Source: Streptosporangium amethystogenes
GTDB lineage: Bacteria > Actinomycetota > Actinomycetes > Streptosporangiales > Streptosporangiaceae
NCBI RefSeq assembly: GCF_000721075.1
Contig: NZ_JOEQ01000011.1
Location: 124,001 to 188,000 of the forward strand
Reading direction: 5' to 3'
Length of the DNA stretch: 64,000 nucleotides
Below the pieces are notes generated by a model. The model ran no database searches and was not told the DNA's origin. It saw nothing but the letters and a program-made list of their open reading frames with translations. Both the position numbers and the translations under genes were made by a program. Of this stretch, positions 3,653 to 28,086 are shown piece by piece. Numbering within the stretch: position 1 is the first letter of the stretch; each line of letters starts with the position of its first letter.

Positions 3653-6532
3653 TCAGGAGAGCTGACGGGTGGCCAGCTGGGCGAACAGGCCGTCCTTCAC
3701 GGCCAGTAGTTCGTCGTAGGTGCCCTGCTGGACGATCCGCCCCTCGTCCATGACCACGATGCGGTCGGCGGCGACCACCGTGGAGAGCCGGTGGGCGATC
3801 ACCACCCGGGTGGCGTTGAGCCGGCGGGTGCTCTCGGCGACCCGGCTCTGGGAGGGGTTGTCCAGCGCGCTGGTGGCCTCGTCGAAGAAGACGATGCGGG
3901 GCCGGGCGACCAGCGCCCGAGCGATCATGAGACGCTGCCGCTGGCCGCCCGACAGTGTGCTGGTGCCCTCGGAGAGCACGGTGTGCATGCCCATCGGCAT
4001 GGCCCTGATGTCGTCGGCGAGCCCGGCCATCTCGGCCGCCGCCCAGGCGTCGTCCACCGTGTGGATGCTGCTGCCGACGATGTTGGCCTGGATGCTGCCC
4101 GCCTGCAGCGCGCCGTTCTGGAGCACCACCCCGCACTGGCGGCGGACGGCGGAGACGTCGAGTTCGGCGAGGTCCTGGCCGTCGTAGAGCACGGTGCCCG
4201 ACAGCGGGATCTCGAAGCCGAGCAGCAGCCGCAGCACCGTGGACTTGCCGCTGCCCGAGGGGCCGACCAGGGCCACGAACTCGCCGGGCTCGATCGACAG
4301 GGCGACCCCGTCCAGGGTCAGCGGACCGTCCTGGCCGTAGCGGAACGACACCTGACTGAGCGCGAGCCGCCCGGACAGGTCGCCGGGGTCGGCCTTGGTG
4401 CCGTCGGTCTCCGGCCGGGCCTCCAGGATCGGCTTGATGTTCTCCATCATCGGCACGACGCCCATCGCGCTGACGGCGGCGGCGGTGAACTGGAGGCTGG
4501 AGGCCAGCAGCAGGCTGAGCGCGGTGAAGAACGGCAGGAAGGTGGCGACCGAGATCTGGCCCGCCATCGGTCCCGCCACCACCGCGAACACGACCCCGGT
4601 GCAGACCAGCGGGAATCCGGCGTTGAACGTGGTCACCGCGTTCTGGATGCGGCGGGCCGAGGCGGTCAGTGAGCGGCCCCTGGTGACCTCGCGCGTCCAC
4701 TCGGCGAACGCCCGTTCCTCGGCGGCGGCGGCCCGCAGCTTCGGCATCGCGGTGAGCATCTGGAAGACCCGGGCCGACATGGTCCGCTCGTGCTCGTAGG
4801 ACTGCCGCTGCCAGCGAAGTTGCATCCGTCCCGCGACGATGGCGAACCCGAGCCCGAACAGCATGAGCCCGGTGGCGACCAGGGCCAGGCGCACGTCGTA
4901 GAAGTAGACCAGGATCAGATTGGCCGACCCGGTGAGCAGCCCCAGCGTGGCCGTGGTCAGCATCCCGGAGAGCATCTCCTGTGCCGAGCTGATGCCCAGC
5001 ACCGTGGTGCCCAGCTCGCCGGTGGAGTAGCGGGCGAAGAACCCGGCGGGCAGGGAGAGCAGCCGGGTCCACAGGCCCGACTGCAGGGCCGAGGTGGTGC
5101 GGCTCTCGACCCGCAGCACCGCGATGTTCTGCACCACCGACAGGGCCGCGACCACGAACCCGGAGCCGATCACCACCAGGGAGCCCTGCACGATGAGGTC
5201 GAGTTCGGCCCGGACCGTGAACACGCCGAGCACCTTGCCCGTCATGATCGGGACGAGCAGCCCGAGCAGCGCGACCAGCACCCCCATGGCGGCGAACCGC
5301 AGCAGGTCACGGTAGTTGCCGCTGTCGAGGAGCCCCAGGCGCAGCAGCGCGCCGACGGTCTTGATCGAGGCGGGCAGCGGCCGGTACAGCACGTGCGCCC
5401 GCTTCTCCAGGCCGCGGGCGACGGCCGCGGTGACCGGGGTGAGCACGCCGTCGTCCACCATGACGTAGCCGCGGCCCATGGTCAGCAGCGCCACGGGGCG
5501 CCCCGCGGAGTTGCTGCCCACCATGGGCCCCAGGTCCTGCGTCCACCACGGGCCGTCCAGCCGTACGAGCCGGGTTCTGACGCCGGAGGCCAGCGCTATC
5601 GCCTGCAGGTCGCCCACCGGGCGGTCCTGGCTGCCACGCCGTACCGGCGGCCGTACCTCGAATCCCTGGTGCGCCGCCACCAGCCGGGCGGCGGCCAGCG
5701 CGGGCGGATCGTTGGCCACGTCGGCCAGTTTCACCTGGACCTCGGTGTCCCGCAGCACGGCGTCGAAGCTCCGTACGGCCTGCGTCAGCACGGTGCTCTC
5801 GCGTTCCCGCAGGCCGGTCAGGGCGGCGCGCTCCTCCTCGCGCCGCCGTTCGATGCGTTCGTCGACGGTGTCGAGCAGCCGGACGGCGTGGGCGGCGAGG
5901 AACTCGCAGAGCAGGCCCTCGTCGAAGACCGAGTGCAGCGAGCGGACCCGCAGCCGGGTCCTGGTGCGGGCGACGAGCCAGTCCCTTTCGGTCAGGCAGA
6001 TGTCGCCGCCCGCGCCGAGCACCAGATCGTTGCCGCCGACCTCCACCTCACCCGCCTCGACGCGCACACAGCGCACGCCGTCGACCGATCGCACGGCGCG
6101 GCCCGCGTCCAGCTCGGCCGTCCCGCTGATGGGCAGCGGGACGAACTGGCGGGGTGGCAGGGGGGCGGGCAGCGCCCGGGCCAGCAGTTCGATGCCGCGG
6201 CCGAGCCCCTTGACCAGCCAGGCGGCGGCCTCGGCGGGCAGGTCGTGCAGAACCGCGACCGGGACGTCGGCGAGTACGGCGCCGGGCACCGGGCGGGCCA
6301 CGATCACGTGGCGCGGCCCCGACGGCACTCCGCAGGCCAGCACCGTGCCCGCCTCGGCCCGGCCCAGGAAGTTCCAGCGGCCGTCCAGCGCGCCGTCGGC
6401 GGTCCGGACCGCGAACAGGTCTACCAGGCCCGACTCGACCAGCAGCATCCGCCCGGGGTTGTCGAGGATCATGAACCGCTCGGTGCCGAGGTCCAGCGGG
6501 ATGGCGACTCCGGCGAGAGCATCGAGGCTCAC
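3653..6532 (-). CDS. NHLM-type ABC transporter, permease/ATPase without peptidase domain, 959 aa
   Basis: Half of the exporter for an NHLP-leader RiPP. The frame stays open far upstream into the next gene, but the start is the GTG at 6530-6532, which overlaps that gene's TGA (GTGA), giving VSLDALAGVAIPLDLGTERF. Residues 1-350 form the N-terminal region typical of the second NHLM ABC protein (no C39 cysteine, cyclic-nucleotide-like strands). Then come a six-helix membrane domain and an ATPase with Walker A GPSGSGKST, signature LSGGQRQRL and Walker B IVFFDEATSALD. Known for the family: it is encoded beside a C39-bearing ABC protein and an HlyD-like protein, as here. It is the last gene of the 13233-3653 transcription unit. 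Confidence 0.9.
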   Translation of the reverse strand: MSLDALAGVAIPLDLGTERFMILDNPGRMLLVESGLVDLFAVRTADGALDGRWNFLGRAEAGTVLACGVPSGPRHVIVARPVPGAVLADVPVAVLHDLPAEAAAWLVKGLGRGIELLARALPAPLPPRQFVPLPISGTAELDAGRAVRSVDGVRCVRVEAGEVEVGGNDLVLGAGGDICLTERDWLVARTRTRLRVRSLHSVFDEGLLCEFLAAHAVRLLDTVDERIERRREEERAALTGLRERESTVLTQAVRSFDAVLRDTEVQVKLADVANDPPALAAARLVAAHQGFEVRPPVRRGSQDRPVGDLQAIALASGVRTRLVRLDGPWWTQDLGPMVGSNSAGRPVALLTMGRGYVMVDDGVLTPVTAAVARGLEKRAHVLYRPLPASIKTVGALLRLGLLDSGNYRDLLRFAAMGVLVALLGLLVPIMTGKVLGVFTVRAELDLIVQGSLVVIGSGFVVAALSVVQNIAVLRVESRTTSALQSGLWTRLLSLPAGFFARYSTGELGTTVLGISSAQEMLSGMLTTATLGLLTGSANLILVYFYDVRLALVATGLMLFGLGFAIVAGRMQLRWQRQSYEHERTMSARVFQMLTAMPKLRAAAAEERAFAEWTREVTRGRSLTASARRIQNAVTTFNAGFPLVCTGVVFAVVAGPMAGQISVATFLPFFTALSLLLASSLQFTAAAVSAMGVVPMMENIKPILEARPETDGTKADPGDLSGRLALSQVSFRYGQDGPLTLDGVALSIEPGEFVALVGPSGSGKSTVLRLLLGFEIPLSGTVLYDGQDLAELDVSAVRRQCGVVLQNGALQAGSIQANIVGSSIHTVDDAWAAAEMAGLADDIRAMPMGMHTVLSEGTSTLSGGQRQRLMIARALVARPRIVFFDEATSALDNPSQSRVAESTRRLNATRVVIAHRLSTVVAADRIVVMDEGRIVQQGTYDELLAVKDGLFAQLATRQLS

Positions 6533-8772
6533 AATCCTCCTCCGGTGTTGAACAGCCGCGTGTAGATGCCGTCGGCGGCGAGCAGCTCCTCGTGGATGCC
6601 GCGCTCGGCGACCTCGCCGTGGTCCAGGACGATGATCTCGTCGGCGTCGCGGATGGTGGACAGCCGGTGGGCCATCAGCAGGCAGGCGCAGCCGCGGCGG
6701 CGCAGGTTGTCCATGATGACGTGCTCCGTCTCCGGGTCCAGGGCACTGGTGGCCTCGTCGAGGATCAGCAGGGTCGGCTCGGCGGCCAGCGCGCGGGCCA
6801 GTTCGAGCCGCTGCCGCTGGCCGCCGCTGAAGTTGCGGCCGTCCTCGCGGACGAACGAGTTGATCCCGCCGGGACGGGCCAGCACGGCGTCGTAGACGGC
6901 GGCGTCGCGGAGTGCGTCGAGCACCACCTCGTCGGGGACCGCCTCGTCCCACAGGGTCAGGTTGTCGCGTACGGTCCCGGCGAACAGCACGATGTCCTGG
7001 TCGACGTAGGCCATCGAGCTGGCGAGCACGGTGCGCGGGATCTCGTCCAGCGGGTGGCCGTCGAGCAGGATCTGGCCGGCGCGGGGCTCGTACAGGCCGG
7101 TCAGCAGGCGGCCCAGGGTGGACTTGCCGCTGCCGGAACCGCCCACGATCGCGACCCGGCTGCCCGGTGTCATGCTCAGCGAGAGGTTCTTGATGACCGG
7201 ATCGCTCAGCGGGCCGTACCCGAAGGTGATCTCCCGCAACTCCAGGCGGCCCTCCAGGCGGGTGCCGAGTTCCACCTCGCCCCCGGTGCGCTCGAAGCAG
7301 CGGGCGATCGGGTGCCGCTCCACGTCGTGGATGCGCTTGGCGTCGGCGCTGAGGTCCTGCAGGCGTCCGCCGAGGTTGGTGAGCTGGGTGACCGGCCTGC
7401 TCAGCGCGGCCAGCAGGGTCTGGAAGGAGATCAGGATGCCGATGCTGAGCACGCCTTCCACCACCCGCAGCCCGCCGATCAGCAGCATCAGGCCGGTGTT
7501 CACCGTGGCCAGCAGGGGCGGGACGACGACCAGCACCGCGGTGGGCACGCCGAGCCGCTGTTGTGCGGAGACGACCTTGGCCAGGAAACCCGCCCAGCGG
7601 GTGAAGGCGTCGGGCTCCGAGCCGGTGGCCTTGACCGTCTCGATCATGCTGAGCGTGGCGAAGGTGGTGCCGGTGAGGTTGCCGCGGTCGGTGCGGAGCG
7701 CGGTGACCGCGTCCTTGCGGGCTCGGGCGACCCAGCGCAGCACCAGGATGTTCAGCGCCGCCATGCCGACGCCGATGACGCCGAGCAGCACGTCGTAGCG
7801 GACCAGCAGGGCGGCGTAGAACGTCACCAGGACCATGTTGATCACCGTCAGCGCGAGGTCGCGGGAGAGGATCTCGGCCACCGTGTCGTTGGTGGAGATC
7901 CGCTTGGCGACCTCGGCCGGTCGGCGTTGCAGGAAGAACTCGATGGGCAGCCGGAGCAGGTGCCGGAAGAAGCGGGCGGAGCCGACCAGCCCGACCCTGA
8001 TCTCCAGCCGCAGAAGGTAGTACTGCTGCACCGAGGTCAGCACGAAGACGGCCGCCGCGGTGAACACCATGACGATCAGCAACGACGGCAGGATGCCGGG
8101 GGAGTTGCCGCTCAGCACCCGGTCGATGAACACCCGGTAGTAGGCGGGCCCGGCGATGCCGGGCAGCAGCAGCAGCGCGCTGGCCAGCAGCACCAGCGGC
8201 AGGGCGCGTCCGGACGGCAGCCGCCACTGGAGCAGCGCCTTGCTGAGCTTGGCGCGTTCCCCGCCCGGCTTGAAATCGGGGCCGGGTTCGAAGGTCAGCA
8301 TGATCCCGGTGAAGCCGGAGTCGAACTCCGACCACTCCATCAGCCGCGGACCCGAGGACGGGTCGTTGATCGCGACCATGGTGCGGCCGAACCGGGTCAC
8401 CAGTCCCTCGACCACGATGAAGTGCTGGAACGCCCAGAAAATGATCACCGGTCCGCTCTGGTCGCGGAGCAGTTCGGCCTCGACCTGGAAGCCCTTGGCG
8501 ATCATTCCGTAGGAGCGGGCCGCCGCGAGCATCGAGGATGCCTTGGACCCGTCCCTGGACACCCCGCACCGGCCCCGCAGCTCCTCAAGCGGCACGTGCT
8601 TGCCGTAGTGGCCCAGGACCATCGCCAGCGCGGCCGCGCCGCACTCGACCGACTCCATCTGGATCACGGTCGGCACCCGGTGATGGTTCTTCCTGCGGGG
8701 GCGCGGGGGACGTGGCTGCTTCCTGGGCGCGGGCTTGGCGGGTTCCGCGGGTTTCAATGTCGTGTTCGTCAT
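6529..8772 (-). CDS. NHLM-type ABC transporter with C39 leader peptidase, 747 aa
   Basis: Peptidase-permease-ATPase that should cleave the leader and export the modified peptide. Seen in order: a basic proline-rich N-terminus; a C39 peptidase domain with the catalytic cysteine in ESVECGAAAL (about residue 45) and the histidine in FWAFQHFIVVEG (about residue 128); a membrane domain from about residue 190 (LPLVLLASALLLLPGIAGPA); and an ATPase with Walker A GGSGSGKST, SGGQRQRLELARAL and LLILDEATSALD. C39 proteases of this group cut after Gly-Gly or Gly-Ala. The precursor has a Gly110-Ala111 pair at the expected place, so the two fit. Sixteen nt after the HlyD-like gene and 4-nt overlap with the next ABC gene. 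Confidence 0.93.
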   Translation of the reverse strand: MTNTTLKPAEPAKPAPRKQPRPPRPRRKNHHRVPTVIQMESVECGAAALAMVLGHYGKHVPLEELRGRCGVSRDGSKASSMLAAARSYGMIAKGFQVEAELLRDQSGPVIIFWAFQHFIVVEGLVTRFGRTMVAINDPSSGPRLMEWSEFDSGFTGIMLTFEPGPDFKPGGERAKLSKALLQWRLPSGRALPLVLLASALLLLPGIAGPAYYRVFIDRVLSGNSPGILPSLLIVMVFTAAAVFVLTSVQQYYLLRLEIRVGLVGSARFFRHLLRLPIEFFLQRRPAEVAKRISTNDTVAEILSRDLALTVINMVLVTFYAALLVRYDVLLGVIGVGMAALNILVLRWVARARKDAVTALRTDRGNLTGTTFATLSMIETVKATGSEPDAFTRWAGFLAKVVSAQQRLGVPTAVLVVVPPLLATVNTGLMLLIGGLRVVEGVLSIGILISFQTLLAALSRPVTQLTNLGGRLQDLSADAKRIHDVERHPIARCFERTGGEVELGTRLEGRLELREITFGYGPLSDPVIKNLSLSMTPGSRVAIVGGSGSGKSTLGRLLTGLYEPRAGQILLDGHPLDEIPRTVLASSMAYVDQDIVLFAGTVRDNLTLWDEAVPDEVVLDALRDAAVYDAVLARPGGINSFVREDGRNFSGGQRQRLELARALAAEPTLLILDEATSALDPETEHVIMDNLRRRGCACLLMAHRLSTIRDADEIIVLDHGEVAERGIHEELLAADGIYTRLFNTGGGL

Positions 8773-8787
8773 CGGTGCCTCCTCCGC

Positions 8788-9600
8788 TCAGCGCCCGAGC
8801 ACCAGGTCGAACGGCGTCTGCTCGCCCAGGTGGATGGAGGCCGACACGGTCACCTGGGAGTCGAGCTGCACGGGCGGTCCCTGCGCGGTCGACCAGGTGT
8901 ATCCCGAATGCGAGGCCTGGTCGGGGATCAGGTCCACGATGATCATCAGGGGGGCCTGGACCGCCGCGTATCTCCTGGCGGCCAGCTCGCCGCCGACCAG
9001 CCCGGCCAGCGCCTCACCGGTCAGGGGGTAGCGGCTGACCGAGGTGACCTGGCCGCGCAGCAGCCCGAAGGCCGCGGCGGGCGCGGTGGACACCTCCAGG
9101 TCGACCGGGCGGCCGGGGGCGATCCAGGCCGCCCGGTCGGCGGGTACGAACACCATGGCGACCAGGCGGTCGTCGGGCAGGTCGGTCCGCTCGACCGTGG
9201 CGACCGTGGTGCCGACGGCGACCACCTGGCCGTCGCTGACCGTGGTGCCGACCACCTGGCCGGTGAACGGGCTGGCCACCTCCTGGGTCTTGCCGTCGGC
9301 GTCCTGCAGTTCGGCGATGGACTGACCGACGATCACCCGGTCGCCCGGCCGGACCAGCACGCGGCGGGCCAGCCCCGAGTAGTGGCTCTGGATGCGGGCC
9401 GTACCGCCCGGGTGGGTGAGGACACCCGGGGCGGCGACCGAGATGCGCAACTCGCCGACGAACGCCCAGACCAGCCCGCCCGCCATCACGATCATCACGA
9501 CGAAGACCGCGATCCAGCCCCGGGGGGTGGCCAGCAGGGTGGGGGAGTCCAGCTCGTCGGGCTCGCGCATTCGTTGCAGCGCCTGGTAGCGGAACCTCAT
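8788..9600 (-). CDS. NHLM-type secretion adaptor (HlyD/membrane-fusion family), 270 aa
   Basis: Membrane-anchored periplasmic-adaptor-like protein of the NHLM export system. Seen: a short cytoplasmic N-terminus, one transmembrane helix (about residues 30-50, WIAVFVVMIVMAGGLVWAFV), then a biotinyl/lipoyl-like barrel (VLVRPGDRVIVGQSIAELQDADGK) and a beta-rich C-terminal part. It is short for the HlyD family and lacks the long coiled-coil hairpin that would reach an outer membrane protein, in keeping with a Gram-positive host. The ATG at 9600 follows the SagB stop closely, within the same operon as both NHLM ABC proteins. Confidence 0.88.
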   Translation of the reverse strand: MRFRYQALQRMREPDELDSPTLLATPRGWIAVFVVMIVMAGGLVWAFVGELRISVAAPGVLTHPGGTARIQSHYSGLARRVLVRPGDRVIVGQSIAELQDADGKTQEVASPFTGQVVGTTVSDGQVVAVGTTVATVERTDLPDDRLVAMVFVPADRAAWIAPGRPVDLEVSTAPAAAFGLLRGQVTSVSRYPLTGEALAGLVGGELAARRYAAVQAPLMIIVDLIPDQASHSGYTWSTAQGPPVQLDSQVTVSASIHLGEQTPFDLVLGR

Positions 9601-9606: not shown

Positions 9607-10983
9607 CTACTCCTCCGTCCGGGGCCGGGAGCCGAGTACGAGTTCCCCGACCGTGCCCTCAAGGAGCGGGTCGCGTCCCGAGGCGGTGGCGAAGGCCGCG
9701 GCGTCCCCGCCGCCCAGGCCGCACACGGCCAGGTCCATCGCGGTGGCCACCAGGTAGAGGGTCTGGTAGAGCACCCCCACGTGCTTGAGGACCAGCGGGT
9801 AGGCGACGGTCTCGTACTTCCACATCACCCGGCCGAACCGGGCCGCCACCAGCAGCACCACCTGTGGATCGGACTCCAGCATGGCGGCGCCCCGAGCCTG
9901 GCCGACCAGCGCCTCGGTGGCCTTGCCCGGTTCGGCGACGAGTTCCAGCTCGTGCCGGTCGGTCGCGTAGTGCCACAGTCCGGGCGCCAGTCCCTCGCAC
10001 GCCGTCACCAGCGGGTAGACCTCCAGCTCGTGTACGGCACCGCCGCTCGGATACGGCCGGTCGGCCAGTTCCTGGCCGTCGCCGCCGGTCATGGTGCCCC
10101 GTCTGCGCAGGCTCCGGTAGAGCAGCTCGCCGAGCTGGGCGAGGGTGATCGGTCTGTCCTGGTCGTGGGCGCGGATCGAGCGGCGCCGTTCGAGCACCTC
10201 GGTGAGCGACGGGTCCTTGGCCGCGACCTCGTCCAGGTCGGGCACCGGCAGCGCGACGGTCCGGGTGCCGGCGGGCGGCGGGGAGACCGGTTCCGGTGCG
10301 AAGCGGTCTTTGATGGGATAGGTCCCGCCGTATCCGCCGACCGAGGCGGGGAAGCGTGTACGGGAGTGGAAGGCCAGGTCGGCGGGGTGCCACTGCGCGT
10401 AGGGGCGCTCGGCCACCTCCACGTCCCCATCGGGACCGCCCGGCGCCAGCAGACCGGCCGTGGCCAGCAGCCGCAGCACCGGGGCGGGTACGGAGGTGCT
10501 CCAGGTCGCCAGCTCGCCGAGCAGCCCGGCGGCCTGCGGCATCAGCTCGACGGCCAGGTGACGGCCGGGGGTCTGCAGGGTCAGTGTGCCGTCCACCACC
10601 CGCGCCTCGGCGAAGCGCGACAGCCGTACCGGGCCGGTGGGGGCCGCCGCCAGCAGCGTCGGACCCCGGCCGACGGAGAAGAGCCTGGCCACCGCGGTGC
10701 CGTCCACCGCCGCGGCGTGTTCGAGCAGCCCGGAGGTGTTCAGCCCGCGGAACAGCATGTGCCAGCGGAGCAGTCCCGCCTCGCCGTCCGCCGTGGTCAC
10801 CGCGCCTGCCAGGGCGGCGTCATCGTGGTCGCCCTCGGCCAGCAGCTTCAGGGCCGTGCCCTGTCCCGGCGACAGGTTCCTCAGTTCGAGAGCCGTGGTG
10901 GTCAGTTGGATGCGCTCACCGGAGAACGACGCGTCCCGGCGCAGCCGGGAGACGATGATGGGGTTCATGGGGGGACCGTTCAC
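9607..10983 (-). CDS. SagB-type FMN-dependent azoline dehydrogenase, 458 aa
   Basis: Oxidises thiazolines/oxazolines made by the cyclodehydratase to thiazoles/oxazoles. Residues 1-230 form a winged-helix-like N-terminal domain found in longer SagB proteins. From about residue 235 the nitroreductase fold appears: RRSIRAHDQDRPITLAQL (FMN phosphate binding), YPSGGAVHELEVYPLV and VLKHVGVLYQTLYLVA. A Lys-Tyr pair occurs in MWKYETVAYP, matching the conserved catalytic KY pair of SagB enzymes. GTG 10983 directly follows the YcaO stop (TAAGTG). ATG 10968 is an alternative; neither has a clear ribosome binding site, so coupled translation is likely. Confidence 0.92.
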   Translation of the reverse strand: MNGPPMNPIIVSRLRRDASFSGERIQLTTTALELRNLSPGQGTALKLLAEGDHDDAALAGAVTTADGEAGLLRWHMLFRGLNTSGLLEHAAAVDGTAVARLFSVGRGPTLLAAAPTGPVRLSRFAEARVVDGTLTLQTPGRHLAVELMPQAAGLLGELATWSTSVPAPVLRLLATAGLLAPGGPDGDVEVAERPYAQWHPADLAFHSRTRFPASVGGYGGTYPIKDRFAPEPVSPPPAGTRTVALPVPDLDEVAAKDPSLTEVLERRRSIRAHDQDRPITLAQLGELLYRSLRRRGTMTGGDGQELADRPYPSGGAVHELEVYPLVTACEGLAPGLWHYATDRHELELVAEPGKATEALVGQARGAAMLESDPQVVLLVAARFGRVMWKYETVAYPLVLKHVGVLYQTLYLVATAMDLAVCGLGGGDAAAFATASGRDPLLEGTVGELVLGSRPRTEE

Positions 10984-13233
10984 TTAGAAGAACACGTTCC
11001 AGGAGTTGATCTCGTCCTGGGGGGTCGGCCGGTCGAGCCAGCCGAGCCGTACCGGTGCGTCGTAGAGGCGGCCGGGCGCCAGGCGGCGCCAGAAGTGCCG
11101 CAGGCCGGGCGCCATCACCTTGACGACGTTCAGCTCCAGATCGGGACGGGTCTGGTCGAGGACGATCACTTCGGATCCGGCCGCCTCGATCGAGTCCACG
11201 CACTGGCGCACGCACACGGCCAGGTCGGTGGGGGCGGGCGGGCCGACGGTGACCGGCGGGAGGCCGGGGTCCGGCAGCAGCCAGGGCTCCCGGTCGACCT
11301 TGGCCTCCTTGCACCAGGCCAGCATCTCCGGGTCGTCCACCCGGTAGAGCGTGTTGCCCTGCTCGTCACGCCGGTCCACGGTCGGCAGGAACTGGTTGAG
11401 CTCGGTGAGCGCGCGGAACGCCGCGATGCGCGGGTCCGGGTGGCTGCCGAAGCCGACCATGATGTCCTCCACCTCGTGGCGGCGCCGGGAGACCGCGGCG
11501 TACACCGGGATGCCCACGTCGGTGGTGAGGTCGAGCATCCACAGGTCGCGGTCCATGGCCCCGTAGAAGTCCCGCAGCTCGCCCACGTAGGGGTCGTCCA
11601 GCGAGTCGAGGTCGAAGGCGGGGCGGCGCAGCCGGTTGTACCACCACAGCGCCACGGAGTCGCGCTCGACCAGCTCGCAGATGCCCTGCAGGATGGCCTC
11701 CTCCAGGGTGTTGCCCGCCGCGCTGCCGTTGGAGTCCGCGATGCAGAAGAAGTGCTGGTAGAGGTCGGGGTGGCCGTACCAGCCGTAGGCGGCGGGGACC
11801 AGCCGTTCCTCGTCGAGGGTCAGCGACCAGGCCCGCGACCAGTCGAACGGCACGTCCTCCTTGAACGGGTCGGGCACCTGCTGCAGCCGGTGCGCCGGGT
11901 CGGCGTTCCACTCCTTGCGCCCGGCCCGCTGCTCGTCGGAGAAGAGCAGCAACCGGTCCGGGTGCACCGCCGTCGCCGGATCCAGGTCGGCGTAGGCGGC
12001 CCGGATGACGGGCTCGTCCCCCCGCCAGACCCCCGAGTACCGTTCGATCGCCTCGCAGAGCGCGCTGACCTTCGCCTGGATCTCCGAGCGCCCCTTGCCG
12101 CCGCTCTGCCCGCGCAGGTTGCGGCGGAGCAGGTCCATGCTGTCGTTGACCATGGCGAAGTTGTGACCGGCGGCGTAGCTGTAGGTCAGGCCGCTGGGGT
12201 CGGTACCGATCGAGACCAGCTTGGTGATCGCGCCCAGGTGCGGGCTGATGTGCCGCTCCAGCCGCGCGAACGTGTCCTGCGGCTGGTCGACCCGGTAACC
12301 GCCGTCGGTGACGTGGTTGGCCTGCCGCGGGGTGAGCACGATCTTGGGGTTGTCGTCGGGCGGCGTGCCGCACGAGGGGCACTGCGGCTGGCGGATCAGG
12401 ACGTGCCTGCTGGTCTCCATGGTCGCCAGGTCGAGGGCGACCATCTGGCCGCAGAGCGCACCCGGCTCGCCGGTCGCCACGATCCTGGCGACCTCGGCCG
12501 CCAGCATCCCGGCCAGCGCCAGCGGCCCGGCCGAGATCTGCGCGCGCACCGGGTGGAACGGCGTCCGCTCACCCCGCTTCCCCGCCAGGTAGCGCTCCAG
12601 CTGGCGGTTGCCGCTGAGCCGCTGCGCCAGGCACGACCAGCAGCCCGTGTGGTCGGGATCGAGGAAGGGGCCGAGCCACGGGCTGACGCCGCCCGGCTTG
12701 GCCAGCAGCCAGGGGAGCCCGGATGCCAGCTGCGACGCGTTGCGCCGCTCCAGGGCCGGGTCGAGGTAGTCGTCCACGAGCACGACCGAGACCCCCTCGG
12801 CGGGCACCTCGTCGATCGCGCCGGTGAGCACCTTCAGCCCCAGCTCGGTCAGGGCGGCCGTGACCGGGGTGGCGTCCACCCCCTCGGCGGCCGCGACGGT
12901 GACCGGCGTGCCCTTCGTGACGGCCGCCGGGTCGATGCCCAGCGCGTCCCAGTAGGCCAGCACCTTCTCCGGCAGGTCCGGCCTGCCCTCCGCGAGGTGC
13001 CCCGCCGCCTCGTAGCGGCGCAGCGTGGTCAGCACCGTGGTGAATGGAACGCTCCCGGCCAGCTCCTGGACGATCTCACTCACACTCCTGCGGCCGTCGA
13101 GGTAGGGGAGCACCGCCACGGCGGCCTTCCCCGGCACCAGGAAGTCCTTCCCCTCGGCGAACAGGAAGACCCGGGATCCGTCCACGACCTCGACATGGAA
13201 ATGGGCCTTTAGTCGTGGACTCTCCATCAGCAT
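10984..13233 (-). CDS. TOMM cyclodehydratase: fused leader-binding (C) and YcaO (D) protein, 749 aa
   Basis: ATP-dependent enzyme that converts Cys (and Ser/Thr) of the core peptide to azolines. Seen: an N-terminal PqqD/RRE-like winged-helix stretch (about residues 1-85) for leader recognition; an E1-like region with two zinc-type pairs, CWSC (about 198) and CPSC (about 290); and a YcaO domain with ATP-site motifs ALCEAIERYSG and EEAILQGICELVERD. The C-terminus is INSWNVFF and lacks the PxPxP ending common in azoline-forming YcaO proteins. AAGG fits ATG 13227 (second Met) better than ATG 13233. First gene of the unit that runs through SagB, HlyD and both NHLM ABC proteins. Confidence 0.93.
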   Translation of the reverse strand: MLMESPRLKAHFHVEVVDGSRVFLFAEGKDFLVPGKAAVAVLPYLDGRRSVSEIVQELAGSVPFTTVLTTLRRYEAAGHLAEGRPDLPEKVLAYWDALGIDPAAVTKGTPVTVAAAEGVDATPVTAALTELGLKVLTGAIDEVPAEGVSVVLVDDYLDPALERRNASQLASGLPWLLAKPGGVSPWLGPFLDPDHTGCWSCLAQRLSGNRQLERYLAGKRGERTPFHPVRAQISAGPLALAGMLAAEVARIVATGEPGALCGQMVALDLATMETSRHVLIRQPQCPSCGTPPDDNPKIVLTPRQANHVTDGGYRVDQPQDTFARLERHISPHLGAITKLVSIGTDPSGLTYSYAAGHNFAMVNDSMDLLRRNLRGQSGGKGRSEIQAKVSALCEAIERYSGVWRGDEPVIRAAYADLDPATAVHPDRLLLFSDEQRAGRKEWNADPAHRLQQVPDPFKEDVPFDWSRAWSLTLDEERLVPAAYGWYGHPDLYQHFFCIADSNGSAAGNTLEEAILQGICELVERDSVALWWYNRLRRPAFDLDSLDDPYVGELRDFYGAMDRDLWMLDLTTDVGIPVYAAVSRRRHEVEDIMVGFGSHPDPRIAAFRALTELNQFLPTVDRRDEQGNTLYRVDDPEMLAWCKEAKVDREPWLLPDPGLPPVTVGPPAPTDLAVCVRQCVDSIEAAGSEVIVLDQTRPDLELNVVKVMAPGLRHFWRRLAPGRLYDAPVRLGWLDRPTPQDEINSWNVFF

Positions 13234-20629: not shown

Positions 20630-21831
20630 CAGCCCATCGCCTCCAGGAGCCGGTCGGCGGCGAGCACCCCGCTGGCGATCGCCCCCTGAACCCACGGCAG
20701 TCGCATTCCCGAGACCGTGGCCTCGCCCGCGAAGAAGAGTGTGTCGGCGACCGGCTCGGCCCAGCGCGCGGGAGCCCGCTCGGCGCCGAGCAGCGGCGCG
20801 GTGAACGCACCCCGGCTCCACGGGTCGGCTCCCCAGTCGGCGATCCGCCGCTCCAGCACCCGGGCCCCCGCCGCCCAGGGCAGCGCCACCGTGAGCATGG
20901 CCGACAGGTCGGGACCGGTGGCGGCCCGCACACAGGCCGCCGCCGCGTCCTTGGCCACGATCAACGCCTCGGGGCGCCCCTCGCGGCAGCTCACGAAGCC
21001 GCTGACGCCGTCCGCGTCGAACACCGACGCGGTCTCCGGCGCGGGCACCGACAGGGTCGCCACCACGCAGCAGCCGTCACCCGCCGACAGCTCCCGGGCA
21101 GCCTCGATCTTGTGCTCGGGCAGATCCTTGATGGTGAGGGTGCCGTAGGTCACCACGGCGGGCGGCACGGTCACCACCACCCGCTCCGCCTCCACGGTCC
21201 CGGCCTGCGTCAGTGCGGCGACCCGCCCCGGCGACCAGCCGAGCACCTGGACAGGGCATCCGGTGTGCACCTCCAGCCCCGCCGCCAGCCGTCGCGGCAG
21301 CAGGTCGAACCCGCCGAACACGATGTACTCTCCCGATCCGCCGTCGTCCCCCCGATGGGCCGCGGCCACGCCGGCGGCGCTGAGCCGCTCCGGGTCCGCG
21401 GCCCAGATCTGCCGGAACCACTCGCTCGCCACCGGGTAGGGCCCGCCGACGTCGCCGAGCCAGCCGTTCACCGACCCGCCGGCCCCGGCGCCCTCCGCGC
21501 TCAGCCTGGCCTCCAGCAGCCAGGGCGGATGCGGCGTGCGGGCCAGCGCCCCCATGGGGCGGCCCACCCGCCCGCTGATCACCCGGGCCGCGGTCGGCCG
21601 CGGCGCCGTCCCGGTCTCCACGAGCCCGTGGACGGGGTTGCGGTCGCCGTGCACGACCTGGGCGCCCAGCTCCAGCGGGGGCCCGCCGTCCGCGGGCCGG
21701 AAGGTCCGTATCCGCCCGCCGATCCGTGACCTGGCCTCGACGACCACGGTGCGCACCCCGGCCCTGGTCAGGCGGTCGGCGCAGGTCAGCCCGCTGACGC
21801 CGGCGCCGATCACGAGAACCTCAGTTCGCAT
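20629..21831 (-). CDS. FAD-dependent amine oxidase-like flavoprotein, 400 aa
   Basis: Flavin amine oxidase / protoporphyrinogen-oxidase-like fold. Seen: N-terminal VLVIGAGVSGLTCADRLTRA, then VVVEARSRIGGRIRT (the FAD-binding GGR motif), and at the C-terminus LFFAGEATVSGMRLPWVQGA, the second FAD contact typical of the family. Substrates range from amines to carbon-carbon dehydrogenations. It starts 11 nt inside the end of the P450 gene, so the P450-FAD-Rieske-hydrolase block is one tightly coupled operon. It might oxidise the N-terminal residue or a C-C bond of the azole peptide; this is inference. Confidence 0.88.
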   Translation of the reverse strand: MRTEVLVIGAGVSGLTCADRLTRAGVRTVVVEARSRIGGRIRTFRPADGGPPLELGAQVVHGDRNPVHGLVETGTAPRPTAARVISGRVGRPMGALARTPHPPWLLEARLSAEGAGAGGSVNGWLGDVGGPYPVASEWFRQIWAADPERLSAAGVAAAHRGDDGGSGEYIVFGGFDLLPRRLAAGLEVHTGCPVQVLGWSPGRVAALTQAGTVEAERVVVTVPPAVVTYGTLTIKDLPEHKIEAARELSAGDGCCVVATLSVPAPETASVFDADGVSGFVSCREGRPEALIVAKDAAAACVRAATGPDLSAMLTVALPWAAGARVLERRIADWGADPWSRGAFTAPLLGAERAPARWAEPVADTLFFAGEATVSGMRLPWVQGAIASGVLAADRLLEAMG

Positions 21832-23011
21832 CCCCGCCTCCCAGCCGCACCGGGAGGGCGCGCAGCCGCCGGGGGATCAGCGTGCCGGCCCAGGCCGGCT
21901 CCGGATCGGCCAGCGACGCGGCGGGGAACCGCTCGGCCAGCCGGGCCAGCAGCACCGCCCCGGTCTGCCGGACGAGTTGCGCCGCCAGGCAGAAGTGCGG
22001 CCCTCCGCCGAAGGCCAGGTGCGGGTTGGGCGTCCGGTCGAGCACCAGCTCCCCGGCCCTTTCGAAAACGGCCGGGTCCCGGTTGGCGGCGGCCACGACC
22101 GCCAGCACCCTGGCCCCCTGGGGCACCTGCCCGCCGGGCAGCGCCACGTTCCGGATCGCGACCCTGGCGGTGAACGGAATCGGCGCTTCCAGCCGCAGCA
22201 ACTCGTCCATCGCGATGCGCGCCGGCTCCCGGCCACCCTCGCGCAGCACGGCCAGCGCCTCGGGCCGGGGCAGCAGCCAGTACAGCGCGTTGCCGATCGC
22301 CTCGGCCAGCGGCTGCCACCCGCCCACCACGGCCAGCCCGAGCACCCCCAGCATCTCCCGCCTGCTCAGCCGGTCGTCGGCGGCCAGCCGGGCCAGCGGG
22401 CTGGGCGGCGCGGACGCGCAGTGCGCGTCCAGGAACCGGGTCAGCTCTGCCATGGCCGACCTGCCCAGCGCCGCCACCTGCGGCCCGGCCAGCGGGTCCA
22501 GATTGATCGAGGCAGCCTGGGCGAGCTGCGCGAAGACCCTCCGGTCGCCCTCCGTCAGCCCGAACAGCCGCAGGAAGACCGAGGTGGCCAGCGGGCTGCC
22601 GATCTCCGTGACCCCGTCGACCATGGACCGTTCCGCCAGCCGGTCGAGGAGCCCGTCCACGTCGGCGGCGATCGCCTCGGCCACCGACGCGATCGCCGCG
22701 GGTCCGAGCAGCAGCAGCCCCGGCGCGCGCAACCGGGTGTGGTCGGGGGGGTCCGTGGTGAGCATCGACGGCGGCAACTCCTCGTCGCGCGCCCGCCCCT
22801 GCTGACCGGCACTCGCCGAGAAACCCTGGTCACGCAGTACGGCGGCGCAGTCGGCGTGCCCGGTCACCAGCCAGAGCCGCGACGCCGCGTCGTAGTGGAC
22901 CGGAGCGCGGGCGCGTAGCCAGTCGTAGGCCGGATAGGGATCGGCCCGTCCCGCGGGGGAGAAGGGGTGAGCCAGGTGGGCAGGAAAGCGGATCTGGGTG
23001 CCTACCGTCAC
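21821..23011 (-). CDS. Cytochrome P450 with atypical I-helix, 396 aa
   Basis: Soluble bacterial P450. Seen: the ExxR pair in DELLRLEAP, PERF-region equivalents (AVFERAGELVLDR), and the heme-thiolate loop AFGGGPHFCLAAQL. The I-helix reads LGLAVVGGWQPLAEAIG in place of the usual AGxE/DT(T): both the acidic residue and the threonine used in O2 activation are absent. P450s with such changes often catalyse atypical reactions (coupling, peroxide use, or oxygen supplied by another group). GTG 23011 is the start. It heads the P450-FAD-Rieske-hydrolase block, 31 nt after the ABC permease stop. Confidence 0.88.
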   Translation of the reverse strand: MTVGTQIRFPAHLAHPFSPAGRADPYPAYDWLRARAPVHYDAASRLWLVTGHADCAAVLRDQGFSASAGQQGRARDEELPPSMLTTDPPDHTRLRAPGLLLLGPAAIASVAEAIAADVDGLLDRLAERSMVDGVTEIGSPLATSVFLRLFGLTEGDRRVFAQLAQAASINLDPLAGPQVAALGRSAMAELTRFLDAHCASAPPSPLARLAADDRLSRREMLGVLGLAVVGGWQPLAEAIGNALYWLLPRPEALAVLREGGREPARIAMDELLRLEAPIPFTARVAIRNVALPGGQVPQGARVLAVVAAANRDPAVFERAGELVLDRTPNPHLAFGGGPHFCLAAQLVRQTGAVLLARLAERFPAASLADPEPAWAGTLIPRRLRALPVRLGGGDAN

Positions 23012-23042
23012 GCGTCAGTCTCCCTTGCGATCGCTTACCTGA

Positions 23043-23894
23043 TCAGCGCACACGCGCGCTGCGCCAGCCGAACGTCAGCGCGGTCAGTAGCAGGCCGCCG
23101 ACCGCCCACAGTCCGAGGACCAGCGCGATGCGGCCGAGTTCCCACCCGCCCGCCGGTTCCACCACGGTGAAGGCGTCCGGCAGGAACACCGAACGGAACC
23201 CCTGCGCCATCCACTTCACCGGGAAGAGCGCGGCCGTGTTCTGCATCCACTCGGGAAGCTGGTGAAAGGGGTAGAAGACCCCGGAGATGAACTGCAGCAC
23301 CATGAACACCGGCGTCACGATCGCCGCGGCGGACCGGCTGTTCGGGATGGCCGCGCTGTAGGCGCTCCCGGCCAGCGCGCAGGTGACGGTACCCAGCGTC
23401 AGCACCCAGCCGAGGGTGAACCAGCGGTGCGCGGTGCTCGGCCAGGGCAACCCGAACGCGGTCACCGCGATGCCGAGCAGCAGCACCGTCTCCAACACGG
23501 TGGTCACCACGACCTTGACCAGCTTGCCGATGAAGTAGGCGGACTTGGGCATCGGCGTCATGGCCAGCCTGCTGATGAGGCCGGTGTCCCGCTCGATGGC
23601 GATGTTGATGGCCAGCCCGGAGAAGGCGGTGCTCATCACACCGGCGGCCACGATGCCCGCCATGAAGACCTGCCGGAAATCGGTCTGGGTGCCCTCCACC
23701 TTGCCGGTGAAGATCGTGCCGAACACCACAAGCAGGATCACCGGAAAGAAAAGGGTGAAGACCAGGGACTGCCTGTTGCGGAAGAATGACTTCAGCTCGA
23801 CCGACGACCGGGCGGCACTGGCCCGCCACAGCCCGGGGAGCAGCCCCTCCCCGAGTTCCTGGCCGGGGGCGCGAACGGAATCGGTGACGCTCAC
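23043..23894 (-). CDS. ABC-2 type transporter permease (DrrB-like), 283 aa
   Basis: Integral membrane half of a drug-type exporter. Seen: six likely helices, starting with LVFTLFFPVILLVVFGTIF (about 45-63), followed by VMSTAFSGLAINIAIERDTGLISRLAMTPM, the pattern of the ABC-2 membrane family, and ending in LVLGLWAVGGLLLTALTFGW. Its start overlaps the ATPase stop by 4 nt. Together the two genes form a DrrAB-type pump, probably for self-resistance or a second export route for the mature compound. Confidence 0.9.
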   Translation of the reverse strand: MSVTDSVRAPGQELGEGLLPGLWRASAARSSVELKSFFRNRQSLVFTLFFPVILLVVFGTIFTGKVEGTQTDFRQVFMAGIVAAGVMSTAFSGLAINIAIERDTGLISRLAMTPMPKSAYFIGKLVKVVVTTVLETVLLLGIAVTAFGLPWPSTAHRWFTLGWVLTLGTVTCALAGSAYSAAIPNSRSAAAIVTPVFMVLQFISGVFYPFHQLPEWMQNTAALFPVKWMAQGFRSVFLPDAFTVVEPAGGWELGRIALVLGLWAVGGLLLTALTFGWRSARVR

Positions 23895-24844
23895 TTGTTC
23901 TCCTCCGGCTGTTGTCGATGCTGGTCGATGAGGTCGAGGTAGATCTCTTCCAGCGTGGGACGGTGCACGATCAGCTCGGGCAGCTCGGCCTCGGCCCAGG
24001 ACGCCAGCAGGCTCACCAGTCCGGTGGGTTCCGAGGTCAGCACGGTGACCAGGTCACCCGCGCCCGTCGGTCCCGGTTCGAGCACCGCGCCACGGGGCAG
24101 CTCGGGAAGTTCCCGGCTGGCCAGCGCCTCGGAGCGCCGGAACGACACGGCGGCCGAGGTCGTCGCACGTCCCCCCAGCTCGCCCGGTGGTGCGCAGGCC
24201 ACCAGCCGGCCGCCCGCGATCACACCGACCCGCGCGGCCAGCGTCTCGGCCTCGTCCAGGTAGTGGGTGGTGAGCACCGTGGTGCAGCCGCGGGCGGAGA
24301 AGAACCGCACCAGGTCCCAGGCCTCGCGGCGGGCGACCGGATCGAGCCCGGTGGTGGGCTCGTCCAGAAAGATCAACTCGGGGTCGCCGATCACGCCGAC
24401 GGCCACGTCCAGACGACGCTGCTGGCCGCCGGAGAGCTCGGTGGTCTTCTTCTTCTCGTACGTGCCCAGGCCGACCATGTCGAGCACCTGCGTGGACGGC
24501 AGCGGCCTGGGGTACATGGCGGCGAACTGCCTGACCACCTCACCCACGGTGAGATCGGGGTAGGCGCCGGTCGATTGGCTGACCACCCCGATACGCGCCC
24601 GCCATTCCCGGGGGTCCCTGGCCGGATCCTGGCCGAGGACCTCCACGTCTCCACCGCTCCGCCGCCTCACTCCCGTCAGTATTTCGACGGTCGTGGTCTT
24701 TCCCGCGCCGTTCGGCCCGAGCAGGGCGAACACCTCGCCGCGGTGTACCCGCAGGCTCAGATCGGTGAGCACCAGGTGCTCTCCATAACGCTTGTTCAGG
24801 CCGGTGACGGCGACCGGGTCATTTTCCGCGGCGGCGGAAACCAT
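23891..24844 (-). CDS. ABC transporter ATP-binding protein (DrrA-like), 317 aa
   Basis: ATPase of the drug-type exporter. Seen: Walker A LLGPNGAGKTTTVEILTG (about 38-55), signature TELSGGQQRRLDVAVGV, Walker B LIFLDEPTTGLDP, and switch His in VLTTHYLDEAE. The C-terminal 90 residues form the extra domain usual in DrrA proteins. GGAGGAG lies just upstream of the ATG. It follows the precursor gene by 99 bp that hold a perfect 14-bp palindrome (24901-24914). Confidence 0.92.
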   Translation of the reverse strand: MVSAAAENDPVAVTGLNKRYGEHLVLTDLSLRVHRGEVFALLGPNGAGKTTTVEILTGVRRRSGGDVEVLGQDPARDPREWRARIGVVSQSTGAYPDLTVGEVVRQFAAMYPRPLPSTQVLDMVGLGTYEKKKTTELSGGQQRRLDVAVGVIGDPELIFLDEPTTGLDPVARREAWDLVRFFSARGCTTVLTTHYLDEAETLAARVGVIAGGRLVACAPPGELGGRATTSAAVSFRRSEALASRELPELPRGAVLEPGPTGAGDLVTVLTSEPTGLVSLLASWAEAELPELIVHRPTLEEIYLDLIDQHRQQPEENK

Positions 24845-24900
24845 CGACTTACTCCTCCGATGGAGACGGGAACGGGAACGGCATGGCGAATTTGGAAACC

Positions 24901-24914
24901 CGCTGAATTCAGCG
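24901..24914. promoter_or_regulatory. 14-bp palindrome between precursor and exporter genes
   Basis: CGCTGAATTCAGCG is a perfect inverted repeat 30 nt after the precursor stop codon. In RNA it could fold as a small hairpin that stabilises or attenuates the precursor transcript, giving more precursor than exporter mRNA. There is no run of T after it on the minus strand, so a simple intrinsic terminator is not supported. It could equally be a protein-binding site. Confidence 0.35.
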
Positions 24915-24943
24915 AATTCGGTGAATGTTGGGAACGCGGTGGA

Positions 24944-25580: not shown

Positions 25581-26897
25581 GTGACGACTACCAGCACGCA
25601 GCTGCCCCCGGGCCCGCCCGGCCCGGTGGACATGGAACGTATGCGTAGTGACCCACTGGGGTTCGTGACCGGCTTGGCCCGGCACTACGGGGACGTCACC
25701 GGCCACCATGCGAACGGCGAGACCGTGTTCATGGCGCACCGCCCGGATCTCGCCCGGCACATCCTCAAGGACAACGTCGGCAACTACACGAAGGAGAACA
25801 CGCCCGACGACCACATGCTCCGCCCGCTACTCGGAAACGGCCTGCTCACCAGCGACGGCGCGGAATGGGCGCGGCAGCGCCGGCTCTGCGCCCCGGCCTT
25901 CCGGCGCAGCGCGGTCGCCTCCTTCGACCAGATCATCACCGACGAGACCTCGGCGCTGCTGACCCGCTGGCGGGCCGCCGCGGAGACCGGCGCACCCCAG
26001 CCGATCGACCACCACCTCACCTCGCTGACCCTATCGATCCTGACCCGCGCGGTGCTCGACGTGGACCTCGGCGCGGCGGGCGACGGGTTCGGCCGTGCGG
26101 TGGACGCTGTCAATCGCTTCATCGGCCACTACGTACCCGACCCCGATCCCGATCCGGTGGACACGAGCCGCCGCCGGCGGGAGTACGCACGCGCCCGCGC
26201 ACTGCTCGACATGATGACGCGCACCGTCATCGCCTCCCGCCGGGCCGCTCCCGCCGCCACCGGCACCCTGCTCGACACCATGCTCGGCGCGCTGTCCGAC
26301 GCCGACCTCCGCGACCAGGTACTGACCTTGATCATGGCTGGTCACGAGACCACCGCCAAGGCCCTGACCTGGACCTTCTATCTCCTGGACCGCCATCGGG
26401 AGGAGGCGGAACGGGTCCGGGCCGAGGTCGACCGGGTGCTGGGCGGACGCCCGCCCACGGCCGCGGACCTGCCCGACCTGCCGCTCTGCCGCCGGGCCGT
26501 ACAGGAGGCGATGCGTCTGTACCCGCCGGTCTGGCTGATCTCCCGCCGCGCGACCGGCCCCGACGAGCTCGACGGCCATCCGGTACGGCCGGGCACGCTC
26601 GTCTGCGTCAGCCAGTGGGTCCTGCACCGCGACCCCCGCTACTGGGACCGCCCGGATGCGTACGTACCCGACCGTTTCGACGGCGCCGACCTCCCGAGTC
26701 ATCTGTACCTGCCGTTCGGCGGCGGCGAGCGCATCTGTATCGGCCAGCACCTGGCGCTGATCGAGGCGACGCTGGTCCTGGCGATGCTCTCCCAGGCGGT
26801 ACGGCTGACGCTGGAACCCGGCTTCCCGGTGGAACCGGAGGCGCTGGTGACACTACGGCCGAAGCACGGCATGCGCATGATCGTGAGCCCCCGATGA
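25581..26897 (+). CDS. Cytochrome P450, canonical type, 438 aa
   Basis: Second P450 of the cluster, with all standard features: I-helix MAGHETTAKALTWTF (about 254-268), ExxR in EAMRLYPP, a PERF-like VPDRFDG and the heme loop LPFGGGERICIGQHLA. The sequence is closer to the CYP102-like/eukaryote-like class than to short actinomycete P450s (ERICIG loop, YPPVWLISR). GTG 25581 has GGAGG five nt upstream. The stop overlaps the methyltransferase start (ATGA). A hydroxylation or oxidative coupling on the azole peptide is likely, but the site is unknown. Confidence 0.92.
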   Translation: MTTTSTQLPPGPPGPVDMERMRSDPLGFVTGLARHYGDVTGHHANGETVFMAHRPDLARHILKDNVGNYTKENTPDDHMLRPLLGNGLLTSDGAEWARQRRLCAPAFRRSAVASFDQIITDETSALLTRWRAAAETGAPQPIDHHLTSLTLSILTRAVLDVDLGAAGDGFGRAVDAVNRFIGHYVPDPDPDPVDTSRRRREYARARALLDMMTRTVIASRRAAPAATGTLLDTMLGALSDADLRDQVLTLIMAGHETTAKALTWTFYLLDRHREEAERVRAEVDRVLGGRPPTAADLPDLPLCRRAVQEAMRLYPPVWLISRRATGPDELDGHPVRPGTLVCVSQWVLHRDPRYWDRPDAYVPDRFDGADLPSHLYLPFGGGERICIGQHLALIEATLVLAMLSQAVRLTLEPGFPVEPEALVTLRPKHGMRMIVSPR

Positions 26898-27871
26898 CCA
26901 CTCTCCCCACGCCCCCGCACCCCCCGGCCACCGTCACCGACCGCGGCGCCGCTCCCGGCACCCCGATACCGGACTCCGGTCCTTACCGCCCCGCCACCCC
27001 GCCGGAGCCGTACGCGGATCCGGCAGGCCCCGCCGGCCGGCCGGATCCCAACCCCCCGACCCCGAACGCCGGTTCGTACAACCCCGCCACCACCACCGCG
27101 GGTGGGCTGGCGGGGGAGCTGGCGCGGCTGGAGGCGCAGGCGGAGCTCTCGTTCGACGAGGAGCTGAGCCTGCTGCGCGAACTGGGCCTGACCGCGTCGG
27201 GCGGCCCGCTGGTCGAGATCGGCGCGGGGTCCGGCGCGATCACCAGGCGCCTGCGGCAGGCACTGCCCGAGTTGTCACTGGTCGCGGTGGACATCGACCC
27301 GGACCTGCTCGCCCATGCCGACGGCGCCGGTGCCGAACTGGTCGTCGCCGATGCCGCCGACCTGCCGCTGGAGACGGCGAGCGCGCAGTACGTACTCCTC
27401 AGGTACGTCCTTCAGCACCTTCCCGATCCCGCACCGGCCCTCGCCGAGGCACGCAGGATCCTCCGCCCCGGTGGCCGCATCCTGGTCACCGAGGTGGACG
27501 CCTCCTGCTGGGGACTGGCCGACCCGGTCTACCCGGAACTGGTGGGAATCCACGCCAAGATGGCGGCGACCCAGCAGGCCGCCGGCGGCGACCGCACGAT
27601 CGGCCGCCGTCTCACCCGCCTGCTCCGGGACGCCGGCTTCACGGAGATCGCCCTTCGCCCGTTCGCCACCACCAACGACACCCGACCCACGGATGACTTC
27701 GCCCCCCACCTCGGCCCAGGACGGCTACAGCCGCTCGTGACGGCCGGAGTGTTGTCGCTCCGCGAGTTCGCCCTCGCCGCCGACCGCTGGAACCGGTTCC
27801 GCGCAGACCCCAATGCCTGGGTGATGCTCCTCGGGTTCACCGCAGCCGGTACCGCCCCCGACGCTCCCTGA
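26894..27871 (+). CDS. SAM-dependent methyltransferase with Pro-rich N-terminus, 325 aa
   Basis: Class I methyltransferase. The first 70 residues are a low-complexity Pro/Ala/Thr stretch (PTPPHPPATVTD...), probably disordered. SAM motifs follow: PLVEIGAGSGAITRRLRQAL (motif I), VAVDIDPDLL, VVADAADLPLE and ILRPGGRILVTEVDASCWG. It could methylate the N-terminus of the core, a tyrosine oxygen or the C-terminal carboxylate; linear azole peptides such as plantazolicin carry N-methylation, but the enzymes need not be related. ATG overlaps the P450 stop. A later start after the Pro-rich part is possible but has no clear ribosome binding site. Confidence 0.88.
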   Translation: MTTLPTPPHPPATVTDRGAAPGTPIPDSGPYRPATPPEPYADPAGPAGRPDPNPPTPNAGSYNPATTTAGGLAGELARLEAQAELSFDEELSLLRELGLTASGGPLVEIGAGSGAITRRLRQALPELSLVAVDIDPDLLAHADGAGAELVVADAADLPLETASAQYVLLRYVLQHLPDPAPALAEARRILRPGGRILVTEVDASCWGLADPVYPELVGIHAKMAATQQAAGGDRTIGRRLTRLLRDAGFTEIALRPFATTNDTRPTDDFAPHLGPGRLQPLVTAGVLSLREFALAADRWNRFRADPNAWVMLLGFTAAGTAPDAP

Positions 27872-27900
27872 GAAGGCCGTCGCCCCACCGAAGGAATCCA

Positions 27901-28086
27901 GTGAACACCAACGTCAAGATCTTCATCACGATCTTCTGCTACATCAGCGCGGTGATGGGCCTCGTCACCGCCGTCATCCAGGCCAGCACCACCCCCGCCA
28001 ACACCCCCGGAGCCATCGGCTCCGGAGTCGTCGGCGGCATCTTCCTGGTGGCCGGCGTGGCACTGAGCCGCAAACCCCGCTACTGA
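27901..28086 (+). CDS. Small two-helix membrane protein, 61 aa
   Basis: GTG 27901 has AAGGA five nt upstream and lies 29 nt after the methyltransferase stop, so it probably ends that operon. The protein has two hydrophobic segments, IFITIFCYISAVMGLVTAVI and GVVGGIFLVAGVALS, and a basic C-terminus (RKPRY). No family recognised. Position at the end of a RiPP operon makes an immunity or transport-accessory role possible, but nothing in the sequence proves it. Confidence 0.65.
   Translation: MNTNVKIFITIFCYISAVMGLVTAVIQASTTPANTPGAIGSGVVGGIFLVAGVALSRKPRY

Follow-up and report, generated by a model that had tools for sequence, protein, structure and literature searches.

The 64,000-nucleotide stretch of Streptosporangium amethystogenes DNA analyzed here (positions 124,001 to 188,000 of contig NZ_JOEQ01000011.1, from a 9.44-Mb draft genome; hereafter the window) contains, at window positions 3653–28086, what reads as one biosynthetic locus for a modified peptide. 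Judged from its genes, the locus is an orphan and a new variant in a conserved, uncharacterised subfamily of azole-containing proteusins, the NHLP-type thiazole/oxazole-modified microcins (TOMMs). We are highly confident that its product is an azole-modified exported peptide, and we consider the full pathway proposed below, including an accessory halogenase, to be likely. A preliminary description had recognized an NHLP-type TOMM cluster with a poly-cysteine core and a rich oxidative set, and this was borne out: each gene named there proved to be an open frame in the place claimed, and frame and profile comparison confirmed their families, mostly above curated cut-offs.

Precursor, azole formation and export

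The precursor (C-terminus CYYCCCPCCCCT) comprises a leader of residues 1–110, which includes LSEGDL (L99 and L104 at -12 and -7), and a predicted C39 cut after Gly110. Proteusins are described with an LxxxxL spacing of -12 to -7 (PMC10858898), and the same spacing from Gly110 suggests that the core begins at residue 111. The LxxxxL motif is kept in 63 of 65 distinct precursors. The core of the window follows the pattern CYY-CCC-P-CCCC-T; it has eight Cys, on both sides of an invariant Pro, and contains no Trp. When 64 distinct precursors were aligned, leaving out one of the 65 with a collapsed core, seven tract positions held 431 Cys, 15 Ser/Thr and 2 Ala among 448 residues, and the Pro was fixed in 64/64. 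This near-exclusive Cys/Ser/Thr tract is the pattern that would be expected if every position becomes a YcaO-made ring.

The machinery for such rings is in place. The fused leader-binding/YcaO protein, SagB, two NHLM ABC proteins and HlyD of the preliminary description are all present, each above its curated cut-off. The YcaO protein scores 246.3 against 219.25 bits for TOMM_cyclo_SagD (TIGR03604) and 143.8 against 36.9 for the leader-binding profile TIGR03882. The nearest solved relatives of the whole protein are LynD, MusD and TruD (PDB LynD, 568 bits over residues 7–744), which bind leaders through an N-terminal RiPP recognition element (RRE; RiPP, ribosomally synthesized and post-translationally modified peptide). 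Lys389-Tyr390 of SagB is kept in 29/29 relatives, and the C39 triad C44/H117/D137 of ABC1 in 24/24.

The sequences themselves show which genes are present, that their catalytic motifs are intact, how the motifs are spaced, that the tract is almost exclusively Cys/Ser/Thr and that 24 mapped clusters are conserved. From these we propose that the N-terminal RRE of the fused protein binds LxxxxL of the long leader and that YcaO would carry out ATP-dependent cyclodehydration of the Cys tract. SagB would oxidize the azolines, giving two contiguous thiazole blocks that flank the invariant Pro. The Rieske protein, amine oxidase, two P450s, hydrolase and methyltransferase would then tailor the peptide, at putative sites and in a putative order, and on export the C39 domain of ABC1 would cleave behind Gly110. 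In a minority of clusters, the flavin halogenase would provide an accessory step. For the predicted core of the window, the computed [M+H]+ is 1867.54 when unmodified and 1707.33 with eight thiazoles, a change of -20.03 Da for each ring. If confirmed, contiguous blocks of 3+4 or 4+4 rings would place the product among the densest ribosomally made azole peptides.

Several observations weigh against this proposal. The NHLP leader claimed in the preliminary description is favored by TIGR03793 (E=2.4e-8) and by the LxxxxL spacing, but the score of 33.7 bits lies under the curated cut-off of 50.9 (NHase_alpha, 20.5 against 27.2). A spacer of 5–9 residues precedes the Cys tract in the cores of the window, G003, G012, G013, G085, G089 and G091 (G numbers denote relatives), and therefore the true N-terminus may arise by further trimming. 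In G001, G002 and G004, Gly-1 is directly followed by a Cys that cannot be a ring fused to the cleaved bond, and the core of G211 is divergent (VACCCCTPCCCA). It is also conceivable, given the very Cys-dense C-terminus, that the tract is left unmodified and binds metal as a metallothionein-like or chalkophore-like peptide. We regard this as highly improbable: YcaO and SagB are intact in 29/29 relatives with conserved catalytic residues, and 15 of the 17 non-Cys tract cells are Ser/Thr, which suit heterocyclization better than metal binding.

Variants of the precursor were also seen. A homologue in Streptosporangium sp. NPDC002721 (P0009) has its Cys tract collapsed to YYCCST, perhaps in a decaying cluster. 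Two tandem precursors occur in G005 (L027/L033), G014 (L031/L034) and G206 (L063/L073); the second of G014 has a different core, IWDPYCCSCCPSCCSASGSG, which carries Trp. Aside from this second precursor, Trp was found neither in the core of the window nor in any of the 24 mapped cores.

Distribution and the oxidative tailoring set

A search of the protein database gave 47 precursor homologues at E <= 0.001. Because of these homologues, and because 24 mapped relatives share the gene set, the precursor locus is more than a chance reading. Many homologues carry the Pfam tag PF27793, and therefore the precursor family as such has already been noticed. A YcaO search of genome contigs gave 15 loci, with the precursor present in all 15 genomes, and the family was seen in Streptomyces, Kitasatospora, Yinghuangia, Nakamurella and one Helcobacillus/Dermabacter record. 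In the order of the window, 23 genomes matched the precursor at E <= 0.001; eight (E 7.9e-14 to 9.0e-4) were dropped and 15 of 345 were kept at E <= 2.4e-48, that is, the window's own and 14 further genomes. Gene maps cover the 15 relatives of the YcaO contig search and nine of the order-wide search, while G082, G084, G087, G088 and G090 entered the YcaO tree and the halogenase count only. In the order-wide search none of the 15 other listed genomes of the same genus had the precursor, and the distribution is therefore patchy. The YcaO tree joins the window to Streptomyces clusters (support 99/97), apart from other clusters of its own order, a placement that suggests exchange between lineages. 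A plasmid search with YcaO returned only relatives below 45% identity.

The precursor, YcaO, SagB, HlyD, ABC1, ABC2, Rieske protein and hydrolase occur in 24/24 mapped relatives, amine oxidase and ABC-2 ATPase in 23, and P450a, P450b, methyltransferase and ABC-2 permease in 22 each. The 61-aa membrane protein occurs in 21/24, the VOC protein in 17/24, the HPr-kinase-fold protein in 12/24 and the halogenase in 9/24. Several of these counts are lower bounds owing to contig ends and the extent of sequence covered: contig ends partly account for missing VOC and HPr-kinase-fold genes (e.g., in G007, G009 and G001), and P450b, the methyltransferase and the small frame of G206 and G211 lie beyond the sequence covered. 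A LuxR-type regulator adjoins the cluster in 27/29 relatives.

The halogenase, two P450s, Rieske protein, FAD oxidase, hydrolase, VOC protein and methyltransferase of the preliminary description were all located as frames. Against the P450 profile (cut-off 22.8) P450a and P450b score 42.1 and 244.7 bits, and the heme Cys ligands are invariant in all relatives examined. Rieske ligands C51/H53/C71/H74 and D149/H152/H157 are kept in 24/24, and hydrolase Ser83 and His237 in 23/24 and 24/24, respectively, with a varying Asp position. P450a lacks the usual I-helix acid-alcohol pair and has GGWQPL there instead, with the like alteration in 22/22 relatives. Some relatives have P450a and the NHLM block in inverted orientation or at another place in the locus, as might be expected if the flanking oxidative genes were a separate small-molecule pathway that merely neighbors the TOMM genes. 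This is very unlikely, as despite rearrangement the Rieske and hydrolase genes accompany the precursor in 24/24 relatives, the amine oxidase in 23/24, and P450a, P450b and the methyltransferase in 22/24. Several actinomycete orders harbor the family, and its tailoring set is nearly fixed and unusually oxidative; this points to a single useful product scaffold, seemingly never isolated.

The flavin halogenase and its candidate substrates

The halogenase is the variable part of the pathway, being present in 10 of 30 clusters. Its motifs Lys70, WYWVIP and DPLLSTG are intact and are all kept in the nine relatives that carry the enzyme (Lys70 and WYWVIP each in 10/10 with the window included); the enzyme looks catalytically intact. 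The nearest solved relatives are halogenases (253.8, 244.3, 208.6 and 201.4 bits), with phenol halogenase RadH among them. On the YcaO tree the history of the gene takes at least four changes, and the halogenase tree broadly agrees with the YcaO tree. This would fit inheritance with loss, and repeated gain is also possible. A search for halogenase remnants in 12 halogenase-minus clusters gave none at useful E-values (best 0.031). In G008, a 63% homologue lies on another contig (L049:8670-10181), near a ketosynthase-like gene and outside the cluster; it is possibly the origin of the enzyme family.

A core Tyr (Tyr119, adjoining CCC, or Tyr118) is a tentative candidate for chlorination or bromination. 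Such a Tyr stands at that place in 7/7 of the window's halogenase-bearing clade, and RadH as a near relative is consistent with a phenolic target. An aromatic core residue was counted in 7/10 halogenase-positive and 3/20 halogenase-negative clusters, as raw counts that omit the aromatic second precursor of G014; a tree-aware comparison leaves only four independent pairs, too few to decide. However, the cores of G230 (VDINCCCCPCCCCT) and G199 (DVNCCCCPCCCCT) hold no aromatic residue, yet in both the halogenase shares a contig with the cluster and sits with the VOC gene in one operon-like row. The core of G060 (SSIGCCCCPCCSCT) likewise has none, its halogenase being assigned across contigs from a position beside a related regulator (estimated contamination of G060 and G199, 7–8%). 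Conversely, G005, G011 and G206 have Tyr but lack the enzyme. Among the first 15 relatives the halogenase had tracked a Cys-x-Tyr core perfectly (6/6 with, 0/9 without, plus the window), but those bearers form one clade, and the three order-wide bearers broke the pattern. Within the window's clade the enzyme may thus act on core Tyr; this cannot be the general target, because three halogenase-positive clusters have aromatic-free cores.

Since the halogenase is retained beside such cores, a target common to all cores can be envisaged, most likely a thiazole C5-H of the polythiazole chain or, once oxidized, the region of the Pro and the C-terminal Thr. We hold this to be rather doubtful; if true, it would make the enzyme an azole halogenase that is guided by the leader within a RiPP pathway, and we know of no characterized RiPP with azole halogenation. 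The substrate could also differ between clades. Aromatic-free cores would equally be compatible with a QhpG-type peptide monooxygenase that hydroxylates a side chain or ring. The enzyme falls under both curated cut-offs and is nearer its threshold for QhpG (196.8 against 240 bits) than for CmlS (250.4 against 900). Nevertheless, we consider a monooxygenase unlikely, as the solved halogenases lie far ahead of a peptidyl Trp dihydroxylase (43 bits) and the catalytic Lys is kept in 10/10. G230 and G168 offer a natural experiment: both have the identical predicted core VDINCCCCPCCCCT, only G230 has the enzyme, and a comparison of their products would reveal its role.

Gene layout and comparison with known systems

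From left to right, the locus runs ABC2-ABC1-HlyD-SagB-YcaO (-), regulator (+), halogenase through precursor (-), and P450b, methyltransferase and 61-aa protein (+). The regulator, the ABC-2 pair, the HPr-kinase-fold protein and the 61-aa protein were absent from the list in the preliminary description.

Table 1. Genes of the proteusin-like locus (window positions).
Gene product	Position	Strand	Basis
NHLM ABC2, permease/ATPase	3653..6532	-	TIGR03797, 794.5 vs cut-off 709.4 bits
NHLM ABC1, C39 peptidase/permease/ATPase; predicted leader removal and export	6529..8772	-	TIGR03796 (NHLM_micro_ABC1), 952.6 vs 853.3
NHLM HlyD-type export adaptor	8788..9600	-	TIGR03794, 163.2 vs 156.2
SagB-type azoline dehydrogenase	9607..10983	-	TIGR03605, 149.1 vs 78.4
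Leader-binding (RRE/ocin-ThiF-like) and YcaO cyclodehydratase fusion, 749 aa, LynD/MusD/TruD-like	10984..13233	-	TIGR03604, TIGR03882
AAA ATPase-domain regulator of the LuxR type, divergent from YcaO	13486..15924	+	AAA_16, GerE
Flavin-dependent halogenase-like enzyme, 466 aa	15925..17325	-	PF04820 Trp_halogenase, 126 vs 21 bits
VOC-fold protein, KbpA-like	17417..18076	-	Profile matches
HPr-kinase/PEPCK-fold protein without P-loop, start codon uncertain	18010..18858	-	Fold similarity
Alpha/beta hydrolase	18933..19727	-	Profile match; Ser83, His237
Rieske non-heme iron oxygenase-like protein	19724..20629	-	Rieske, 39.5 vs 20.3; 2Fe-2S and Fe ligands intact
FAD amine-oxidase-like enzyme	20629..21831	-	Amino_oxidase, 148.8 vs 19.8
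P450a, I-helix acid-alcohol pair replaced	21821..23011	-	P450 profile above cut-off
ABC-2 type permease	23043..23894	-	Profile match
ABC-2 type ATPase	23891..24844	-	Profile match
NHLP-like precursor, 128 aa	24944..25330	-	TIGR03793-like leader; core AASAEACYYCCCPCCCCT
P450b, canonical AGHETT I-helix	25581..26897	+	P450 profile above cut-off
Class I S-adenosylmethionine methyltransferase	26894..27871	+	Profile match
Conserved 61-aa hydrophobic protein, probably two membrane helices	27901..28086	+	Conservation in relatives

Several accessory genes allow for tentative roles. The VOC-fold protein possibly binds the product or confers immunity, and the 61-aa protein, which lies beside the methyltransferase in 21/24 relatives, is possibly an immunity or export helper. 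The HPr-kinase-fold protein is possibly a pseudokinase in the peptide pathway: the P-loop G-x4-GK[ST] is found in 0/14 sequences, and TIGR04352 gives 21.5 bits against a cut-off of 200. Its fold was predicted poorly from a single sequence (mean predicted local distance difference test score, pLDDT, 37.9) but well with 14 sequences, and the model resembles HPr kinase. Across the 19 genes of the cluster a TTA codon occurs just once, in the hydrolase gene, where it is a possible bldA control point.

The preliminary description knew of no product that combines this core with halogenase, Rieske and amine-oxidase-like steps. Searches of open-licence PubMed Central (PMC) papers turned up neither a product nor any account of the core family, and a search for the core-letter motif was also empty. 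The NHLP family of Haft, Basu and Mitchell 2010 (PMC2887384) and the NHLP/Nif11 TOMM group of a 2015 survey (PMC4603692) share the leader type, fused cyclodehydratase and NHLM exporter, but neither an actinomycete core of this kind nor such a tailoring set is named in the available parts of these papers, and the word 'halogenase' has 0 occurrences in their texts. Cyanobactin heterocyclases LynD, TruD and MusD are relatives over the whole length of the YcaO protein; export in the window cluster would instead run by an NHLM system, and the scanned cluster proteins included no PatA/PatG-type protease.

Nostatin A and carnazolamide are characterized azole proteusins (PMC11583998, PMC10676384). Nostatin A shares the NHLP leader, YcaO cyclodehydratase, oxidase and azoles, and its core Pro is alkylated, but it differs in a 30-aa Ser/Thr/Cys core, a LanM-like dehydratase, an epimerase and a sactionine; the part available names no P450, halogenase or Rieske protein (PMC11583998). 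Carnazolamide and the dehydrazoles share the NHLP leader, Cys-rich core, YcaO, dehydrogenase and methyltransferase, and a P450 is present in one predicted member from Streptomyces (PMC10676384). However, dehydrazoles are defined by a LanM-bC dehydratase, and no LanM-bC (DUF4135) protein was found among the 18 cluster proteins scanned.

The sponge-associated SrpE/SrpC/SrpI proteusin combines an NHLP leader, YcaO and a flavin halogenase, with core LCCCW and Trp bromination (PMC10858898). It resembles the window cluster in the leader with LxxxxL at -12 to -7, in YcaO azolines on contiguous Cys and in a leader-borne halogenase step. The window cluster differs in the eight Cys that surround the invariant Pro of its core and in its Rieske, amine oxidase, P450 and hydrolase set, and its core lacks the Trp of an SrpI-type Trp-brominated proteusin. 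The earlier claim of an undescribed combination holds for the product so far as the open-licence papers searched go, but the cluster recurs in 24 other genomes, and the joining of an NHLP leader, YcaO and a halogenase has its precedent in SrpE/SrpC/SrpI.

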